From a virus, in IMG/VR virus record IMGVR_UViG_3300030117_003369, positions 1 to 64,000 of that record: a DNA stretch of 64,000 nt, one strand, 5' to 3'. Below the pieces are notes generated by a model, which made no database searches, was not told where the DNA came from, and saw only the letters and a program-made list of their open reading frames with translations. Of this stretch, positions 1-7,727 are shown piece by piece. How positions within the stretch are numbered: position 1 is the stretch's first letter; each line of letters starts with the position of its first letter. Position numbers and translations under genes: made by a program.

Positions 1-157
1 TGGCAACCTCCATTAGGTATGCCAAATCAGTCCAAGAGGTATGCTTGTTAGCATCCCCTTCTAATTTATTCAAATCTTCAAAACTGACAGTCGTCATTGC
101 TGTCAAAACATTCGCCCACCAATCGGTGGGTTGTATTGGCACATCGTCACCGGCCAC
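1..157 (-). CDS. Partial ORF at left edge, unknown
   Basis: Open minus-strand frame that runs off the left edge, so the C-terminus is missing. A GTG at 157 gives a product beginning MAGDDVP; a second GTG lies at 142. The visible 52 residues contain PTDWWANVL and TSWTDLAYLM, acidic and tryptophan-rich. PTDWWANVL is loosely like the PFDxAWxLLK helix of the neighbouring genes, but out of register, so I do not count it as a tagged protein. No strong ribosome site is seen. No family recognised. Confidence 0.5.
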   Translation of the reverse strand, partial: MAGDDVPIQPTDWWANVLTAMTTVSFEDLNKLEGDANKHTSWTDLAYLMEVA

Positions 158-211
158 GCTCAGTCTATAGAGTCATACTTGAAAGTCATTCCCCTACGCA
201 CTTAGAAAAAA

Positions 212-535
212 TTACCACTTTACCTTGTCAGCCCAATATGCAGCACTCATCGGTCCACGCTTGATATTCTTAGCATGACGAGCCTTAAACGAAGCCCGCT
301 TCTTTGCCCGCTTACCTGTTGGCTTATCTTCAGTTACAGTATCTGCACCTTGTTCACCAAATCGAATCGTCTTAACTTTACCACCTGACCTTGCTACAAC
401 CACATGTGATTTCTTAGGGTGATTAGGAGTACGCTTAGGTTTATTGTAACCGCTAACCCCTGCTGCTTTTAGACGAGGATCTGGCTTCTTTGTCTTGAGT
501 AACTGCCAAGCAGACTCAAACATATCGCCTGCCAT
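212..535 (-). CDS. Helix-tagged small basic protein of the RFG...SFKARHAKN...MSAAYWA...VKW type
   Basis: 107 residues. The start at 535 (MAGDMFESAWQLLK) is chosen because it puts a variant of the PFDxAWxLLK helix at the N-terminus, as in the genes at 2743-4671; an upstream TTG at 550 also exists. The second half is a conserved phage module: KTIRFGEQG, then a basic stretch, SFKARHAKN and MSAAYWADKVKW. This module is common in tailed phages and some large viruses, with no proven role (DUF5872-like, from memory). Here it is fused to the tag, suggesting a virion-associated or late product. A TTTATTT about 25-30 bases upstream could be a weak promoter. Confidence 0.75.
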   Translation of the reverse strand: MAGDMFESAWQLLKTKKPDPRLKAAGVSGYNKPKRTPNHPKKSHVVVARSGGKVKTIRFGEQGADTVTEDKPTGKRAKKRASFKARHAKNIKRGPMSAAYWADKVKW

Positions 536-671
536 GGAACGCTGACGCAAGTATAGGAAATAAAGGTGGCCCTTTCACCGGGATAGCATGACGATGAGCG
601 AAAGCGTCAATGAGAGAAAGTGTCGAAGTTTCACGGAGGTGTAGTGTCCGGGCCGGTCAATCTGAGACAAT

Positions 672-827
672 TCAGATATATAGGGCTGTTTCCTTATCCA
701 ACTGAATATGTTGGCACTTGTTACACATCCAAGCAACACCACGCTGCACACTGTTATACTTCGTATACAGTCGCTTAGTAGGTTGGTGCCCACATGCATT
801 GCAGGCAGGACTTGGTTTACGAGGCAT
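672..827 (-). CDS. Small zinc-ribbon protein
   Basis: 51 residues, start ATG at 827 behind AAGGTGAG (on the minus strand). Two CxxC knuckles (CNACGH near residue 9 and CNKCQH near residue 36) about 25 residues apart make a classic zinc ribbon, probably binding nucleic acid or protein. It is followed by about 135 bases with no gene (536-671). The function is unknown; short zinc ribbons recur throughout this window. Confidence 0.72.
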   Translation of the reverse strand: MPRKPSPACNACGHQPTKRLYTKYNSVQRGVAWMCNKCQHIQLDKETALYI

Positions 828-831
828 TTGC

Positions 832-1545
832 TCACCTTGCATCTTCCCAATCTATTATTCTACCTATCTCGTTATACACAGGTCTAACTTCTGCTGGTCC
901 CGGTGGTAAGTTACTTGTATCTGTTTCCGATGCAGTTTGAGGAGATCTAACAGGAGGGCGAGCAAGAAGTTCAGGTCTAACAGGAGGACGAGCGGGTGGG
1001 AGTCGCTTTAAGTTAGCACTCGGCGCAGGGCCTTGGTTTCTTGCCTGTTCAAGCATTTCTTTCAATTTATTATTCGGATTATCCATGTTAGCATCTAATG
1101 ACTGCTGTATAGTGGGTTCAGGTAATTCACTAGCGATCTCGCCATAGTCCATGGCATCATTCTTTAACAATCTAAATGCTATTTCCATTGGATGTCCAGT
1201 TTCTACAGTAAAGCGTGAATCGTCACCACTGTAGATTTCGGGACTTTGGTTAAAAAACTTAACAGTTTCAAAGTTTAATGGGTATCTTTTATTTCCTTCT
1301 TTTACACTTTGTAATTGTGTTTCACTAGGTGCCTCATTTCTTTCATCAGTCATCAATGTTGCTCTAGGAGTATTTTCATAAAAGCCGGGACCGGAAGGAT
1401 TTCTTACAAAATCAGGTTTTTTCGCTTGACTTACAAGGTTATGGGGGTACCCCGGCCTTTGTTCAAGTCGCCTTTCATCTTCAATATGAGCCGTGTCAGA
1501 TCTTCGCTTTAACAAAACCCAACTATCATAAAAGGGACTCGCCAT
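832..1545 (-). CDS. Helix-tagged proline-rich protein with a second internal helix
   Basis: 237 residues, ATG at 1545 directly after the HMG-CoA lyase stop. The N-terminus (SPFYDSWVLLKR, residues 3-14) is a variant of the PFDxAWxLLK tag, and a second copy (HPMEIAFRLLKND) sits at residues 118-130. This resembles the MTPMDEAWMILK form used at 52421-53592. The C-terminal part has two copies of a PPVRPELLARPP-like proline/arginine stretch and looks disordered. No catalytic motif is seen. It is probably a virion or cargo protein; two tag copies in one chain could give two docking sites. Confidence 0.72.
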   Translation of the reverse strand: MASPFYDSWVLLKRRSDTAHIEDERRLEQRPGYPHNLVSQAKKPDFVRNPSGPGFYENTPRATLMTDERNEAPSETQLQSVKEGNKRYPLNFETVKFFNQSPEIYSGDDSRFTVETGHPMEIAFRLLKNDAMDYGEIASELPEPTIQQSLDANMDNPNNKLKEMLEQARNQGPAPSANLKRLPPARPPVRPELLARPPVRSPQTASETDTSNLPPGPAEVRPVYNEIGRIIDWEDAR

Positions 1546-1547
1546 GG

Positions 1548-2396
1548 CTACACCGACAGGGTTTGGGCTAAAGAAGGTTCTGCTATCTTCAAAGCAATGC
1601 GCTTGGCGTTGGCAAGGTCATCTATAGACACACCGCAGTCGTAGCCCCTAGCAGTCAACCATTTGACTAGTGACTCGGTTGCCAAGTTGCCGGGACTCCC
1701 ATCTACAAACGGACAGCCCCCTAAGCCAGCAATACTAGAATCAAACTCACTGATGCCACACTCAATGCCTTTGCGAACCAACGAAAGAGCATGCAATTCA
1801 CTATCTGCACGGTGATGAAGGTGAAGCGCAGGGCGAATACCTATCTTCTCACAGATACCTGCAGCAACCTCGACCTCGTGCTCAGTGCCGACCCCAACAG
1901 TATCTGACAAAACCACGGTATCACCAAACAATTTCGCAGCCTGAATCGCTCTGACACGCTTGCTCATAGGAATGTCACCCTCGTAAGGACAGCCGAAGTA
2001 GCACGATATATAGACACGAACATTGGCCTTCGGTATACCCTCAAGCATGAAAGCGTACCTAGCAATTGCCTCATTCAGTTCACAACCAAGGTTACGCCTG
2101 TTAAACTCCTCACTCGGAGAGAATACAATGTTGAAGTAAGTAACCCCTGACTTAATCGCACGGTCCATTCCACGCTGATTCATAACGAGCGCAGCCCCCT
2201 GCCCATCGAAAACCCTCTCAGCATCTGCCATCTGAGGAACATAAAGCGGGTGAGCAAAACTCACAGTTTCTATAGAACGCAAGCCTGCGCTCCTAAGTGC
2301 ATCGATTAACGCCCGCTTCATCCGGGTAGGTACGACCTTCTTGATTGTCTGCAATCCATCACGAGGGCCGACTTCGTAAATTGAAATCTTCTTCAT
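1548..2396 (-). CDS. HMG-CoA lyase-like DRE-TIM metallolyase
   Basis: 282 residues, near the usual ~300 of hydroxymethylglutaryl-CoA lyase, which splits HMG-CoA into acetyl-CoA and acetoacetate in leucine breakdown. Visible family marks in order: EVGPRDGLQ near the N-terminus (catalytic Arg-Asp), YISCYFGCPYEGDIP, SDTVGVGT, the metal-binding HLH in PALHLHHRAD, and the C-terminal signature GLGGCPFVDGSPGNLATE with catalytic Cys and Asn. All key residues seem present, so activity is likely. ATG at 2396 is preferred over GTG at 2405. It is flanked by the tagged gene at 832 and small late genes, in the same direction. A metabolic enzyme here is an auxiliary metabolic gene, presumably host-derived. 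Confidence 0.9.
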   Translation of the reverse strand: MKKISIYEVGPRDGLQTIKKVVPTRMKRALIDALRSAGLRSIETVSFAHPLYVPQMADAERVFDGQGAALVMNQRGMDRAIKSGVTYFNIVFSPSEEFNRRNLGCELNEAIARYAFMLEGIPKANVRVYISCYFGCPYEGDIPMSKRVRAIQAAKLFGDTVVLSDTVGVGTEHEVEVAAGICEKIGIRPALHLHHRADSELHALSLVRKGIECGISEFDSSIAGLGGCPFVDGSPGNLATESLVKWLTARGYDCGVSIDDLANAKRIALKIAEPSLAQTLSV

Positions 2397-2414
2397 CAGC
2401 CCCACCCATGTCTA

Positions 2415-2567
2415 TCACTTCAGGAAAAACAGGGCTTTCAAGGCTTTAAGCCAATTGACGGTCAACTTTTCACCAGTAACGAACTCAATACCTGTTTCTG
2501 CTTCTACACGATCTAACCTCGATGACTGGTGGTCGAACCACTCGTCTAACAGGGTGCAGCGTGTCAT
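2415..2567 (-). CDS. Small protein, unknown
   Basis: 50 residues beginning MTRCTLLDEWFDHQ, start ATG at 2567 with GGGAG five bases upstream, stop at 2415 just before the lyase. Amphipathic, with a basic/hydrophobic tail (WLKALKALFFLK) that might touch a membrane or another protein. A plus-strand ORF over the same DNA is judged a shadow. Function unknown. Confidence 0.6.
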   Translation of the reverse strand: MTRCTLLDEWFDHQSSRLDRVEAETGIEFVTGEKLTVNWLKALKALFFLK

Positions 2568-2599
2568 GTTGACTCCCAAGGATGTTCAGAAGTTAAGTT

Positions 2600-2746
2600 T
2601 TACTGTTCAAATGCCCCTAAGTCAACAATTATCGGAGGCTCTTCTCTCGGCCAAAATAGTGTCACAAAAAATGAAACCAAACCCAGTATGACGCATAATA
2701 ACCAAAGGGGCAGGCCTGTCAGTTCAACGGGGTCAGGAAGCGTCAT
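2600..2746 (-). CDS. Single-pass membrane protein, holin/lysis candidate
   Basis: 48 residues. A short acidic N-terminus (MTLPDPVELTG) is followed by one clear hydrophobic span (LPLWLLCVILGLVSFFVTLF, residues about 12-31), then charged WPREEPP and an acidic tail. The ATG at 2746 overlaps the stop of the upstream tagged gene (ATGA), and the upstream C-terminus supplies the AGGA ribosome site. Size and topology fit a small phage membrane protein such as a holin or spanin-like factor, but there is no diagnostic motif. Confidence 0.65.
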   Translation of the reverse strand: MTLPDPVELTGLPLWLLCVILGLVSFFVTLFWPREEPPIIVDLGAFEQ

Positions 2747-2952
2747 TCAATTCCTAGTTCCTCTTGTCTGCGCTTAATTGCTTCCATCGCTTGAGCGGTT
2801 TTGGCTTCTTCTGTCTGCAGATAAGCAGTCCGATCTGCCTGAGCCTTTTCTCGTGCCACCTTCGCTGCCTGTCTTTCAGGGTCAGGAGTAAAAGGATTGT
2901 AAATCTCCTTTTCTTCCTTCAGAAAAGTCCACGCTGCGTCGAAAGGTTGCAT
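2743..2952 (-). CDS. Helix-tagged small coiled-coil protein
   Basis: 69 residues. Start ATG at 2952 gives MQPFDAAWTFLKEEKE and has GAAGAG about eight bases upstream; the longer TTG start at 2970 is rejected. After the tag comes a linker (YNPFTPDPER) and a highly charged Ala/Glu/Lys/Gln stretch that should form one long helix. The bases just before the ATG (GTGATACCC) are the same as before the next tagged gene, showing that start site and tag were duplicated together. No enzymatic motif. Confidence 0.75.
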   Translation of the reverse strand: MQPFDAAWTFLKEEKEIYNPFTPDPERQAAKVAREKAQADRTAYLQTEEAKTAQAMEAIKRRQEELGIE

Positions 2953-2957
2953 GGGTA

Positions 2958-3317
2958 TCACTCTTCCCAAATTACCTCACCATCATAGTCGTCCATAGGT
3001 AGGTTTAATGAGGGGTTTCTAGGAGGCAAACCGTAATCTCGCTGGTAGGCATAGGCAGCAGCAAGTCTCCTCTCGTACTCATCATTCTTTGCGTTTAATT
3101 GATTAAGAGTGTGTTGTCGACCGGGAGTACCTTTGGGTAAATTAAGCACCGCCAAACTCGCTGAGTTGAAAGGCGCAGGTATACCGTACTTGTAATCCAT
3201 ACCTACTTCAGTTGGCCTAGTGTTGCCACCAACATATAACTCAGGAGAGTTTTGCATAGACTGCTCTAGCAAAGTCATTTCTTTCAAAAGAGTCCAAGCC
3301 TGCTCAAATGGTCGCAT
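2958..3317 (-). CDS. Helix-tagged protein, unknown payload
   Basis: 119 residues. Start ATG at 3317 (MRPFEQAWTLLKEMT) with AGGTG upstream, chosen over the longer frame start at 3347. After the tag the sequence is hydrophilic, with Asn, Pro and Tyr (NLPKGTPGRQHTLNQ, AAAYAYQRDYGLPPRNPS) and an acidic C-terminus ending IWEE. It is mostly disordered in look, with no recognised domain. Third of six successive tagged genes counted upward from 2743. Confidence 0.72.
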   Translation of the reverse strand: MRPFEQAWTLLKEMTLLEQSMQNSPELYVGGNTRPTEVGMDYKYGIPAPFNSASLAVLNLPKGTPGRQHTLNQLNAKNDEYERRLAAAYAYQRDYGLPPRNPSLNLPMDDYDGEVIWEE

Positions 3318-3327
3318 GGGTATCACC

Positions 3328-3738
3328 TTAGTATTGTCTACCGCCACTCATGTAGCCTTCGCCCGCTGCGGCGTTTCCACCTTCATCGAAAATGTCAGTT
3401 GGGGTAACTTCACCTGCGTCTATACGGCGTTCTAAATCATCATAGTACTTACGACTCATCTCTTCTCGGTGCCATCTGTCCTCTTCTGCTTGCATCTGTT
3501 CTATTTCTTCCTTGGTGGGAGCATAGTATTCAGCAAGGCCGGGATGATCTTCAGGGAAAGGAAGGGGCCTTGGTTGTCTATCGTTAAGATCCTCCCTTGT
3601 TAATGACAAAGGTAAACCTAAGTTTCTCTTACCAGCAACTCGATGCAACCTTACATGTCTATCAGTGTCGTCGAGAGTGCGAGCAGGCTCCGAAGTATAA
3701 CTCTTCAAGAGTCGCCAAGCATGATCGAAAGGTTGCAT
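3328..3738 (-). CDS. Helix-tagged protein, unknown payload
   Basis: 136 residues beginning MQPFDHAWRLLKSYT, with GAGGTGAG upstream. The payload is Arg/Asp/Glu-rich (LDDTDRHVRLHRVAGKR, then an acidic helix around EEIEQMQAEEDRWHREE) and ends in a Gly-rich tail. No catalytic motif. The 22 bases around the start are almost identical to those of the gene at 3741, so the N-terminal cassette was copied while the rest differs completely. Confidence 0.73.
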   Translation of the reverse strand: MQPFDHAWRLLKSYTSEPARTLDDTDRHVRLHRVAGKRNLGLPLSLTREDLNDRQPRPLPFPEDHPGLAEYYAPTKEEIEQMQAEEDRWHREEMSRKYYDDLERRIDAGEVTPTDIFDEGGNAAAGEGYMSGGRQY

Positions 3739-3740
3739 AA

Positions 3741-3914
3741 TTACTCACCTCTAAACGCAGTTGCAGGATTCATCATCGGACTCCACTTTTGATTGTAACA
3801 ACTAATGCACTCTTCGGGACTACCAGTAGCAGGATCTATTTGACTAGGGTTGCCACAATGAGGGCACTTTACATCTTCTTTCAGTATTTTCCAAGCATGA
3901 TCGAAAGGTTGCAT
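3741..3914 (-). CDS. Helix-tagged zinc-ribbon protein
   Basis: 57 residues: MQPFDHAWKILKEDV followed at once by a zinc ribbon (CPHCGNPS and CISCYNQ, about 17 residues apart) and a short tail. This is the clearest case of the tag as a separable module, since the payload is simply a four-cysteine zinc knuckle. Start 3914 is set by homology to the other tags; the longer start at 3923 adds only MIF. Confidence 0.75.
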   Translation of the reverse strand: MQPFDHAWKILKEDVKCPHCGNPSQIDPATGSPEECISCYNQKWSPMMNPATAFRGE

Positions 3915-3919
3915 AAATA

Positions 3920-4288
3920 TCACATCGGTTGTTGCCTATCGCCTGAATAGTATTGTTCAACATCTTCACGGGTCAATTCCTCCATACCAGTATCGAGGGT
4001 GGGTGGATTTACTTGGCGATCATAAGGAGGTTGGCTAGTAAACATATTTGCAAGTAATAATCTCAATCGCTGATTATCAAAGTCATGCTTTTTATCAGAA
4101 TCTAATGGATCCACTGTATCTTGTCCCATTCGATAATGGAACAACTGTTCATTATTATCATCATCTATCAAATGTTGGCTTATTGGTGGGTTTCTTTCTA
4201 CATCAGTTTCTCCAAGTTCAGGTAACCTTACAGGAGAAGGCTTAGTATAATTTTTCAAAAGCCGCCAAGCCTGATCGAAAGGGCGCAT
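3920..4288 (-). CDS. Helix-tagged protein, unknown payload
   Basis: 122 residues beginning MRPFDQAWRLLKNYT. The payload is polar, rich in Asp, Asn, Gln and Pro (PISQHLIDDDNNEQLF, LLLANMFTSQPPYDRQ) with an acidic stretch near the end (MEELTREDVEQYY). Nothing enzymatic is visible. The gene abuts the gene at 3741. Confidence 0.72.
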   Translation of the reverse strand: MRPFDQAWRLLKNYTKPSPVRLPELGETDVERNPPISQHLIDDDNNEQLFHYRMGQDTVDPLDSDKKHDFDNQRLRLLLANMFTSQPPYDRQVNPPTLDTGMEELTREDVEQYYSGDRQQPM

Positions 4289-4320
4289 TGTCTAACCCGA
4301 ACCACTCAAGACACAAATAG

Positions 4321-4671
4321 TTAGCGGGAGTTTTGGTATACTATCGCCCACGCTAAGTCAAAAGGTTCGCTAGCCAATTTTTCTTGGAAGTCCATATCAA
4401 AAGGTTGCTGAGATAGCATCTGTTGTTCAGCATCAGGTGTTCTCAATCTCATTTCATCAGTCAACGCCTGCTTTTGTTCGGGAGTTTGCAAAAAAGGCTT
4501 GTTAAAGCCAATTGAAGCCAGTTCATCATACTCAAACTCAGCAAATGGCCTTGGTGCATTACCTTCCTCCATATCTTTAAGTCGCTTTTCAGTAGCCGCC
4601 TCTCGTTGTAAAAACTCACGGTAACTTGGATCTTCCTTGAGCAAAGTCCACGCTAAATCAAATGGACTCAT
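4321..4671 (-). CDS. Helix-tagged protein with a tag-like helix at both ends
   Basis: 116 residues, start 4671 (MSPFDLAWTLLKEDPS) by homology to the other tags; the longer frame to 4698 has no ribosome site. The C-terminus (SEPFDLAWAIVYQNSR) is a second copy of the motif, preceded by an internal LSQQPFDMDFQEKLA that looks like a third, degenerate copy. The middle is charged and helical. It is the promoter-proximal gene of the leftward unit. The DNA for its last seven codons is repeated just upstream of its start (see repeat). Confidence 0.72.
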   Translation of the reverse strand: MSPFDLAWTLLKEDPSYREFLQREAATEKRLKDMEEGNAPRPFAEFEYDELASIGFNKPFLQTPEQKQALTDEMRLRTPDAEQQMLSQQPFDMDFQEKLASEPFDLAWAIVYQNSR

Positions 4672-4725
4672 AGAACAAGCCAGTGCCAATGCCAACAAAA
4701 ACTTAGCGCTGGTTTTGGTATACTA
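4321..4725. repeat. 23-bp imperfect direct repeat flanking the 4321-4671 gene
   Basis: 4321-4343 and 4703-4725 are the same 23-mer with three changes; both contain TTTTGGTATACTA. The first copy codes on the minus strand for VYQNSR-stop, the end of the tagged gene. The second, upstream of that gene, still reads VYQNQR-stop in the same sense. The simplest view is that 4703-4725 is the leftover end of a lost tandem copy of the gene. Confidence 0.6.
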
Positions 4726-4773
4726 AAAACGATTTTTTTGTAATTTTTTTTCAAGCGCCGTATGGGGTTAGAA

Positions 4774-4817: not shown

Positions 4818-4832
4818 GAGGGGGTTTATAAG
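4816..4832 (+). promoter_or_regulatory. Archaeal-type promoter for the rightward unit
   Basis: A TATA box TTTATAAG at 4825-4832 is preceded by purine-rich TCGAGGGG, compatible with a TFB-recognition element. Transcription would begin about 25 bases downstream (near 4857), leaving a leader of about 95 bases before the ATG at 4952 with a GC-rich hairpin (about 4882-4909). It is the best TATA match in the divergent gap between the leftward and rightward units. Confidence 0.55.
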
Positions 4833-4951
4833 GGGGGGTATGTTTTATTGTCTATCGGTGCTGGCCTTCACGGCTCGCACACCTGCCCCTGTTCATAGAG
4901 CAGGGTAGGTACCCCGCTTGCCTGTGAGGGTTGCATCGAGGAGATGACATT

Positions 4952-5404: not shown

Positions 5405-5478
5405 GTCTAAGCCAAGACGCCGTAGGCGCACCTAGAACCACCGCTACACAAAGCGGCCCCCCAGCCGGTAGGTCAACA

Positions 5479-5769
5479 ATGTTGCAAGCCGTGCTGATTA
5501 CGAGGTGAGAAGGGACACCTGTCAAAATAAAACGAGCGTGGTACCCGCCGCTTAACCAAACGGAGTTACCGGACTATACCGGCCCAGCACACGCGATCGT
5601 GTGCGACCATCTGTAGCGGCTGCCCCTATACGCAAATGTAGCGGCAGCCCTCGCAGAATATGGCGAACAACATATTTGGCATAAGCCGAACAAGGCCGGA
5701 CAACCAACCACCTTGCGGGCCAGTTTGCACAAAACAAAGGAACACACGCTGCAAATGCGGCGGAGTTAG
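5479..5769 (+). pseudogene. Interrupted ORF (in-frame TGA and TAG)
   Basis: One plus frame is open from about 5404 to 5769 apart from a TGA at 5506-5508 and a TAG at 5614-5616. Between and after the stops the translation looks like real protein: VKIKRAWYPPLNQTELPDY, GPAHAIVCDHL, then VAAALAEYGEQHIWHKPNK. A shifted frame then stays open to 5825 (AANAAELDAKSAEKKRI). It may be a decayed gene, a gene read with recoding, or sequence error. TAG and TGA are ordinary stops elsewhere in this window, so code reassignment is not the answer. Confidence 0.4.
5587..5604. other. Perfect hairpin in the non-coding region
   Basis: GCACACG-CGAT-CGTGTGC, seven perfect base pairs around a four-base loop, almost a full palindrome. 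It lies inside the interrupted ORF and could be a protein-binding site or an RNA hairpin. Confidence 0.5.
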
Positions 5770-5807
5770 ATGCAAAGAGCGCTGAAAAAAAGCGCATTCT
5801 ATTCAGC

Positions 5808-5899
5808 GAGCCGTGTGGGTATTGACATCCCGCACCACATTCACTTCTTGTCATCCCAACATCGTGCGAGGAGATTAATGCGTTAGTACCGCACGGCTC
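5808..5899. repeat. Inverted repeat GAGCCGTG / CACGGCTC with nearby hairpins
   Basis: 5808-5815 and 5892-5899 are perfect 8-bp inverted copies enclosing about 75 bases with no gene. Just upstream GCTGAA (5781-5786) can pair with TTCAGC (5802-5807), or alternatively GCGCT (5779-5783) with AGCGC (5791-5795). The nested, competing stems suggest a structured transcript or a replication signal. Confidence 0.4.
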
Positions 5900-5950
5900 A
5901 AGTCACCTTCACCTATTCACGAACCGTTGTACTGCGAGTCAGCGGCTCGT

Positions 5951-6140
5951 TACGAATACATGAAATACAACATGTACACTAGTCATGTAATCGAAACCGT
6001 AGTGCTTACGAATACATATACACACTACCCATAGATAATATATCTCTTATTTCTGTAAGGGGTATAGTGTATGTACTGTACATGAAACTACGAATACACG
6101 ACTAGTGGACACGATGTATTCCATGTACACGATGTACGCA
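5951..6140. other. Candidate replication origin: direct repeats and palindrome in A+T-rich DNA
   Basis: The 10-mer TACGAATACA occurs at 5951-5960, 6007-6016 and 6089-6098. CATGTACAC is at 5971-5979 and 6123-6131, and ACTAGT appears near 5978 and 6101. ATGTACTGTACAT at 6071-6083 is a perfect palindrome with a central T. Between the second and third 10-mer lies the most A+T-rich stretch here (ATAGATAATATATCTC, 6031-6046), flanked by partly inverted arms (CACTACCC and GGGGTATAGTG). Iterons around a melting-prone core are typical of origins. There is no coding sequence, and the region sits between oppositely directed gene blocks. No initiator gene is identified. Confidence 0.5.
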
Positions 6141-6197
6141 GTACAGCGTTTAGCCTATTCAATGCAGATGTACGGAGGGCGTAGAGCCTAGTGGGAG

Positions 6198-6389
6198 AGC
6201 GAAGCAATTCGCTGTACGCTCGTAGAGATACCGCCACGAAAATCGACAGAGAACCCAAGACCTCTTCGGGGGCTGACAGTCGGGAAAGACCGGCACCTAT
6301 TCCTTCCGGCGACATAAACGCCGGTGTTCACGGGTCGTGTGAACACTCAGTGCATGTAGAGAGGCTGCATGTTGTTAGTAGCACGACCC
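6198..6389 (+). ncRNA. Candidate structured RNA with a predicted pseudoknot
   Basis: Consecutive stems seen by eye: AGCGAA-GCAA-TTCGCT (6198-6213, GNRA loop); CCTC-TTCG-GGGG (6261-6272, UUCG loop); CCGGCG-ACATAAA-CGCCGG (6306-6324); immediately followed by TGTTCAC-GGGTCGT-GTGAACA (6325-6345). The seven-base loop of the last hairpin (6332-6338) is perfectly complementary to ACGACCC at 6383-6389, giving a loop-to-downstream pseudoknot. Two very stable tetraloops and two abutting perfect hairpins in 200 non-coding bases argue for a real RNA. It lies between the origin candidate and the first gene of the early operon, so it might be a free RNA or a leader element. Confidence 0.55.
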
Positions 6390-6445
6390 CCCATTCCTTA
6401 TGCGCACACGATCGCATACATCACATTCCCTTGGAGGAAACAAAC

Positions 6446-6628
6446 ATGAGCATGAGTATAGAACAAGTTTGGAAGCACACCGAGTATCAGCGCAAAATGC
6501 TAACCAATGCAATTATGCGATACTTGGGGGCGATACCACATAAAGATTGGACTGAAGAGCAGAAAGCACTTTGGCGAGAAATGGCAGATGTGAACAACAC
6601 ATCAATCGAAGAATACTTCGGAATCTAA
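6446..6628 (+). CDS. Small early protein, unknown
   Basis: 60 residues, start ATG at 6446 after GGAGG. Helical, with one basic patch (YQRKMLTNAIMRYLG) and an acidic tail. It is the first gene of the long early block, behind the RNA candidate and a TCACATTCCC box. An upstream frame extension to 6191 overlaps the structured region and is rejected. Confidence 0.7.
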   Translation: MSMSIEQVWKHTEYQRKMLTNAIMRYLGAIPHKDWTEEQKALWREMADVNNTSIEEYFGI

Positions 6629-6660
6629 ATCACATATCACATTCCCACGGAGGAAAACAC

Positions 6661-6966
6661 ATGAGGACAGGAGACACAACATACATTGTGGTAAGGTTTG
6701 AGGAACGGGGCATTACATGTGCCGGTACTCATCTTATCCGAGAATGCGCAGAGTTACAGGCAGAAAGCCTTAACGAAAGGCGCAACAAGATACATGAAGC
6801 AAAGTGGCGAGTACAGGAGTCTATGTACTATGACGACTACATGGACTATGCTTACTTCATAAGGCAGAAGAAAGCAGATTTGGCAAAACTCGCTGAAGAT
6901 TGCGGCATAGCAAAATCAGGTACTAAGCACGACATTGCTATGCGCATATTGCGAGCCTGCGAATAA
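6661..6966 (+). CDS. Small protein with a C-terminal SAP-like DNA-binding motif
   Basis: 101 residues, ATG at 6661 after GGAGG. The N-terminal half is a short beta-rich part (YIVVRFEERGITCAGT) and a helix. The last 35 residues (KADLAKLAEDCGIAKSGTKH, then a helix) match the SAP pattern of two short helices with a GxxxSGTK turn that binds DNA. Probably a DNA-binding accessory protein; SAP assignment by motif only. Confidence 0.65.
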   Translation: MRTGDTTYIVVRFEERGITCAGTHLIRECAELQAESLNERRNKIHEAKWRVQESMYYDDYMDYAYFIRQKKADLAKLAEDCGIAKSGTKHDIAMRILRACE

Positions 6967-6998
6967 TCACATTCACACAAACACAGGAGATGAAACAA

Positions 6999-7145
6999 AT
7001 GGACAACAGGAAAAAAGCATATTGTCCGGGCGGTTGCGGTGCGAGTACTTGGTACTCTACCTGCGTACCTGCTGGGAAGGAATCAGTTGTGCACCAAAGT
7101 ACGCACAACACGATACAGCACAAGTGCACATGCGCAAAAGCGTGA
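6999..7145 (+). CDS. Cysteine-rich micro-protein
   Basis: 48 residues starting MDNRKKAYCPGGCGAS, with a further Cys and a C-terminal CTCAKA, so a zinc site is likely. AGGAGATGA precedes the ATG at 6999. A longer frame across the same DNA (6935-7171) lacks a sensible start and is taken as a shadow. Confidence 0.55.
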   Translation: MDNRKKAYCPGGCGASTWYSTCVPAGKESVVHQSTHNTIQHKCTCAKA

Positions 7146-7193
7146 GCACATATCACATTCCCGCCCACTGAAGGGCGAGATAAGCAAAGAGAG

Positions 7194-7727
7194 ATGAATA
7201 TAATGAGTATGACATTAGGAGATATACTAATGAATGCGACTGTGAACGGACAAGAAGTAGAGGTGACCGCAGGTGTACTTTTACACGGTGCTATGGCAGA
7301 CACATTCGATACGAATGTAACTGCAACAGAAGGCGAACTTGGCTGGGACACGGAATCAGAGCGCATTGAAGCAATAGCGGAAATAGCAGCAAAGAGAAAG
7401 CAGAAGGAAATTGCACGAAGAAACCGAGAAGCACGACGCAAGAAGGGTTCAGGTGCTTACAAGGGCAACTGGAAACCATCTAAGGGCACAAGAGTTGTGA
7501 CAACGACTACAGGCAAGATGACAAAGGCGGAGTTTGATGGCAGCAAGGCGAAGCATGACAAGATAATGGAGAGAGATGCTTCAGGTAAGCGTGTTCACAA
7601 TTGCGCTGCTGCTAAAGCATACAGGCATCAAGTTTACGAATACATGTCCAAGCAGCGTGACGATGCAGGTAATTTGATTCGCACTGAGCACCCTGATGCA
7701 AGGGCAGTACAGTTAGCGGGCATTTGA
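7194..7727 (+). CDS. Basic protein, unknown
   Basis: 177 residues from the first ATG; in-frame ATGs at 7203, 7209 and 7230 are alternatives, and 7230 has the best-spaced AGGAG. The middle is strongly basic (about residues 66-95, with KRKQKEIARRNREARRKKG) and is followed by a domain containing KMTKAEFDGSKAKHDKIMER. The basic stretch points to nucleic acid binding. No family recognised. Confidence 0.7.
   Translation: MNIMSMTLGDILMNATVNGQEVEVTAGVLLHGAMADTFDTNVTATEGELGWDTESERIEAIAEIAAKRKQKEIARRNREARRKKGSGAYKGNWKPSKGTRVVTTTTGKMTKAEFDGSKAKHDKIMERDASGKRVHNCAAAKAYRHQVYEYMSKQRDDAGNLIRTEHPDARAVQLAGI

Follow-up and report, generated by a model that had tools for sequence, protein, structure and literature searches.

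Does a noncoding stretch of a magrovirus genome in which two tetraloop hairpins are followed by two adjacent perfect hairpins (positions 6198-6389) constitute one structured RNA, and is its last hairpin loop engaged in a pseudoknot? The question was addressed in the window, i.e., the first 64,000 nt of a 109,462-bp contig from a magrovirus of marine archaea. Magrovirales are tailed viruses of Poseidoniales, whose features are a family B polymerase, a clamp loader, a chaperonin, an HMG-CoA lyase-like protein and two opposed gene clusters (PMC10768690). The virus carries PF00136 (family B DNA polymerase), an AAA/clamp-loader-like protein, PF00118 (TCP-1/cpn60 chaperonin), PF00682 (HMGL-like protein) and opposed gene clusters, which place it among the Magrovirales; DNA methylases were identified as well.

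A search with PolB identified relatives in 77 IMG/VR loci (62-99% identity) and found none in GTDB genomes. According to exact-pattern scans of viral contigs and genomes, the locus is common only to L079 (IMGVR 3300030098_001962), the sole close relative covering the left half of the region (6152-6302), and to the partial L080. Searches for relatives by flanking proteins found none, nor did searches for the locus DNA in phages, and against other magrovirus records the locus DNA matched only over short stretches, mostly at the level of chance. Matches in G006 and G009 were dismissed as coding or chance, and the locus was not revealed at the skew minimum of G034. No tRNA was found. Rfam release 15 gave 0 matches across the whole window at the curated threshold and only weak, chance-level ones at the relaxed threshold; microRNA matches in palindromes were rejected, as they reflect long AT-rich hairpins and not relatedness.

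Composition of the hairpin region

All hairpins of the preliminary description are present. The GCAA tetraloop hairpin reads GCGAA-GCAA-TTCGC at 6199-6212 (6 bp as 6198-6213) and the TTCG one CCTC-TTCG-GGGG at 6261-6272; the two perfect hairpins are CCGGCG-ACATAAA-CGCCGG (6306-6324) and TGTTCAC-GGGTCGT-GTGAACA (6325-6345), the second having 8 bp if 6324-6346 is counted, with base 6324 then borrowed from the first. The loop GGGTCGT is, as had been claimed, the exact complement of ACGACCC (6383-6389), with 37 nt between hairpin and partner, and this match is part of a longer 9-bp complement (GGGTCGTGT/GCACGACCC) containing one G-U. What did not hold is the grouping of these hairpins into one element: because L079 has the left half but not the right one, which is missing exactly from one ATTCCTT repeat to the other, 6198-6389 joins two things (Table 1).

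The two halves also fold differently. For 6152-6302, the fold energy is no better than that of shuffled sequence (z of -0.03; about 0 for 6150-6299). In this half, the sole informative change (A6260 in the window, T in L079) puts a U-G pair where the TTCG stem has an A-G mismatch; this fits the hairpin and may lend it weak support. For the right half, z was -3.42 on the + strand and -1.42 on the - strand (6296-6390), and -3.34 and -0.71, respectively, for 6300-6399. As controls, 120 random 100-nt windows from the gene-dense part had a mean z of -0.42 (sd 1.01, minimum -3.06); the score is noisy, with some 300-nt coding stretches at -3 to -4 and the coding gene 6661-6966 reaching -4.1. The proposal of a structured RNA is thus supported for 6299-6392, where the fold is strand-specific and the sequence noncoding, but not for the tetraloop half, which is conserved and yet folds like chance.

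The region had been described as free of genes, in agreement with the absence of coding signal over 6191-6445 in the GTG-initiated ORF 6191-6628 (codon score -0.02; genes mostly 0.13-0.55). This ORF could in principle be an N-terminal extension of the gene at 6446, given that its frame is open and that L079 differs in length by 93 nt, a multiple of three. However, its codon score is like that of off-frames, a strong ribosome site and an ATG are present at 6446, in L079 the frame fails to continue into the gene, and the codon changes at 6246-6260 are nonsynonymous. We regard a coding role as very improbable.

The arrangement had further been called unlikely by chance. This applies to the hairpin excess across 5405-6440, where 12 perfect hairpins (stem of at least 5) were counted versus 4.9 expected, a number reached in 0 of 300 shuffles. 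A hairpin with a 7-nt loop complement nearby arose in 11 of 5000 shuffles of 6198-6389 (0.2%), but the pseudoknot alone is not significant, because the scan of the whole 64-kb window identified two such elements versus 0.78 expected from shuffled sequence. A recombination-prone noncoding spacer with a few accidental hairpins and no function would account for this background of ~0.8 elements per 64 kb, for the absence of the module from a 95%-identical relative and for a tetraloop half that folds like random sequence. It would not account for a z of -3.34 that is confined to one strand and is lower than in any control window, nor for the hairpin excess over the whole locus, the pair-preserving changes in neighbouring helices and the like pattern in other magroviruses (G020/G016, see below), and we consider it rather unlikely.

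Table 1. Features of the locus (positions in the 64,000-nt window)
Feature	Positions	Strand	Remark
AAGCGCCGTATGGGGTTA, conserved intergenic promoter-region motif	4753-4770	+	Single copy in 8 of the 28 magrovirus records searched; 0 with a control pattern
TATA-like TTTATAAG, predicted promoter of rightward early transcript	4825-4832	+	Sequence
Structured 5' leader	4850-4949	+	100-nt fold z -4.98 on +, -1.15 on -
Small basic lysine/alanine-rich ORF, 150 aa	4952-5404	+	Begins rightward gene cluster; codon score 0.29
Hairpin of conserved linker A	5587-5604	+	Identical in L079 and L080
Linker A hairpin GGCTGC/GCAGCC	5618-5649	+	C-G in window versus G-C in L079 and L080
Probable Cys-rich micro-ORF, 41 aa (MANNIFGISRTRPDNQPPCGPVCTKQRNTRCKCGGVRCKER)	5660-5785	+	Frame kept despite 9-nt length change in L079
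Helix B, 19 pairs (one a bulge in window), closing a variable interior	5808-5899	+	Three-virus comparison
Imperfect AT-rich palindrome, 230 bp, with TACGAATACA repeats	5922-6151		Inverted repeats
Conserved segment with GCAA (6198-6213) and TTCG (6258-6274) hairpins	6152-6302	+	95% identity to L079 over 6100-6303
Structured module, 94 bp, between ATTCCTT direct repeats (6299-6305, 6393-6399)	6299-6392	+	Absent from L079
Hairpin H1, 6 bp	6306-6324	+	In every computed fold
Hairpin H2, 7-8 bp, loop GGGTCGT	6325-6345	+	Competes with P3
P3, 9 bp: GGGTCGTGT (6332-6340) with GCACGACCC (6381-6389)	6332-6389	+	Closes module in computed minimum
Hairpin H3 (6352-6359/6365-6372)	6352-6372	+	Inside P3
Linker B hairpin	6399-6418	+	Linker conserved in L079
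TCACATTCCC spacer with CMYATTC core	6421-6430	+	One of ten CMYATTC copies
First small early gene 3' of module, 60 aa	6446-6628	+	Codon score 0.25; GGAGGA ribosome site 6433-6438

Alternative folds of the module

The longer complement competes with the hairpin from which its loop derives. In P3, the loop GGGTCGT and two stem bases of H2 are paired with GCACGACCC, and seven of the P3 pairs are those of the originally described pseudoknot. The minimum-energy nested fold of 6303-6392 consists of H1 and P3 with H3 inside (-37.6 kcal/mol); a fold with H2 formed, loop and tail being free, has -27.2 kcal/mol and is thus ~10 kcal costlier. The 7-bp loop-tail duplex yields -11.2 kcal/mol, or about -15 without the intermolecular term. 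With the usual penalty of 8-10, less possible coaxial stacking, the pseudoknot was estimated by hand, and not by a tool, at approximately -32 to -37 versus -37.6 for the nested fold, so that it is a possible near-equal alternative. Since the two states are close, the loop could act as a toehold for the 3' strand replacing H2.

Neither the DNA comparison with magrovirus records nor the exact-pattern scans of viral contigs and genomes identified a homologue of the module, and the 109-kb genome contains no second copy. Since the searchable collections hold no homologue, the structure of the module is argued from energy. We also observed that the module strand 6333-6341 is complementary to 6405-6413 in linker B.

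The surrounding locus and its counterparts

The locus that contains the module spans 1 kb, is mostly noncoding and sits where both gene direction and GC skew switch. The TATA-like TTTATAAG, with equivalent boxes at the corresponding place in L079, L080 and L081, is likely the promoter of the rightward early transcript, and the 150-aa ORF behind it had no Pfam match above the curated cut-off. In the linker A hairpin at 5618-5649, one pair is changed on both sides in comparison with L079 and L080. Cys-rich ORFs are found at the place of the micro-ORF in L080 and G025; across L079, L080 and G025, this ORF is hypervariable with its clustered cysteines kept, and it has no Pfam match. Farther upstream (1-4700, - strand), a run of small genes shares an N-terminal motif like M.PFD.AW..LK, the proteins being otherwise different.

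Helix B is paired in 55 of 55 countable cells in three viruses (100%), and five of its pairs vary on one side and are still standard pairs on the + strand, several of them G-U; with three sequences a shuffling control has no power, and slid structures pair only 29-42%. Its region (5784-5921) has a fold z of -3.73 on the + strand and -0.17 on the - strand. A perfect 13-bp inverted repeat (5593-5605 and 6403-6415, 800 bp apart) has one arm in linker A and the other in linker B, which are both kept in L079; the two arms could pair within one RNA.

Short spacers recur at the locus. CMYATTC occurs 10 times on the + strand of 5784-7400 versus 0.49 expected (p about 1e-10), with the copies clustering at modules and early-gene leaders, and these positions are also kept in L079, including where its modules and genes are different ones; the gene 6446-6628, for instance, is replaced there by an unrelated one. 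At 6421, 6637, 6967 and 7153, the sequence TCACATTC(C/A)C precedes the ribosome sites of the first early genes (four copies versus 0.44 expected).

Between helix B and the conserved segment lies the 230-bp palindrome, which is stable on both strands (z -5.3/-6.3) and coincides with the cumulative GC-skew minimum. Similar palindromes occupy the matching position in G020, G023 and G024; they escaped an ungapped scan for palindromes, a method too crude for the purpose. The palindrome is likely a replication origin, and the locus marks a candidate origin in a virus group without a cultured member. The hairpins of the module might then belong to this origin as DNA, being extruded for initiator binding or single-strand initiation. 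This would fit a distance of ~150 bp from a palindrome at the skew minimum and gene-direction switch, and the counterparts of that palindrome by position in three other viruses. Nevertheless, stability on both strands, as expected for a DNA element, is seen for the palindrome, whereas the module and helix B are clearly stable on the + strand only, and L079 has the palindrome without the module, which leaves this explanation improbable.

In other magroviruses, locus sequences are not alignable between groups. The + strand had the lower z in all of the 11 clearly negative-z locus segments from eight viruses, as a sign count over segments that we chose (5405-5657, 5784-5921 and the module in the window; L079; L080; G020 twice; G024; G028 35-245; G025; G023). 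In G028, 450-620 showed no structure on either strand. A common order of ORF, structured noncoding stretch and AT-rich palindrome was observed in G023, G024 and G020; small genes lie between the stretch and the palindrome in G024, and G028 carries part of the G024 stretch. In G023 (64% PolB identity), a structured stretch of 310 nt at the corresponding place (z of -2.2 on the + strand, +0.1 on the - strand) bears TCACATTCC at either end; the stretch had no match in 50 other records. In the distant magroviruses L122, L123 and L143, many GGTAAAGCC or GTCTAAACTG repeats precede the first ORF in the intergenic promoter region, the repeat unit differing by group, and L123 has RNA-like modules in tandem, each closed by a perfect stem of 12-15 bp, with CACCCACTCA between them (about 1860-2800, - strand).

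Gain or loss of modules was also found in G020 and G016, the one other pair of close relatives that was compared: their flanks are 80-92% identical by aligned piece, and stem-closed modules, with 12, 12, 13 and 15 bp in their closing stems, are present in G020 and missing from the corresponding locus of G016. For G020 2800-2200, z was -7.45 on the + strand and -5.48 on the - strand. Such gain and loss in two pairs (window/L079 and G020/G016), together with exact boundaries at 7-bp direct repeats, is what a recombination cassette or small palindromic mobile element would produce, selected for moving and not for an RNA function. However, no other copy was found in the 109-kb genome or the collections searched by exact pattern, and module sequences differ from virus to virus. 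We hold this explanation to be quite improbable.

Interpretation and comparison with known systems

The structured-RNA reading of 6299-6392 is supported because its stability is strand-specific, the sequence is noncoding and a neighbouring helix shows pair-preserving changes. The segment probably belongs to a group of several hairpin modules that are exchangeable at the locus. More specifically, and as the reading we favour, it may be an exchangeable structured-RNA module in the leader or intergenic part of the rightward early transcript, a model for and against which we see about equal chances, and for which we infer transcription, folding order and function. The module directly follows the likely origin, precedes the first small early genes and would fold while transcribed, H1 and H2 first. 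As the 3' strand emerges, its ACGACCC would pair with the H2 loop, forming the pseudoknot; the same strand could subsequently replace H2, so that P3 closes the module around H3. Beyond the closed module, an unstructured CMYATTC spacer, the linker hairpin and the ribosome site of the gene at 6446 would follow, and the likely role would be in cis, on transcript stability, on processing, or by keeping the next ribosome site accessible or timed. Modules would be gained and lost through recombination at the short spacer repeats.

Only tentatively, and with more doubt than for the module itself, we extend this model to magroviruses at large. They may carry an undescribed locus of interchangeable structured RNA modules, reaching from an early ORF to the first early genes around the origin palindrome. 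These would be fast-evolving archaeal-virus RNAs, conserved in place and architecture and not in sequence, with short unstructured spacers between modules, and 6299-6392 would be one member, a loop-seeded co-transcriptional switch. A literature search with incomplete coverage of subscription papers yielded no published description of the locus, which argues weakly for its novelty. If folded modules are swapped while the position and layout of the locus persist, the different versions would form a natural series for probing RNA function.

Several known systems resemble parts of this arrangement. GOLLD and ROOL have exchangeable parts. They are large, phage-associated ornate RNAs with cryo-EM structures (PMC12286853), and share with the magrovirus locus the character of long structured noncoding RNAs in virus genomes; the latter differs in being broken by small ORFs, in lying beside an origin-like palindrome and in belonging to archaeal viruses, and the GOLLD and ROOL covariance models (Rfam 15, assuming that both are included) had no match in the window. 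A second resemblance, and only that, is to the PeSL (promoter-early stem-loop) boundaries of T4-like phages, in which a promoter and a stem-loop lie at cassette borders and conserved short sequences with hairpins separate exchangeable small early genes. Both have short conserved boundary sequences with hairpins, but in the magrovirus the spacers are formed by CMYATTC together with linker hairpins, and noncoding modules are among the units exchanged. In an H-type pseudoknot, a loop pairs with a strand outside its own stem; the module loop could do so with the downstream strand to which GGGTCGT is fully complementary, but the nested alternative is at least as stable. Finally, herpesvirus origins are examples built on long AT-rich palindromes, to which the neighbouring 230-bp palindrome with its short repeats at the skew minimum can be compared, whereas the module is not part of the palindrome and folds strand-asymmetrically.
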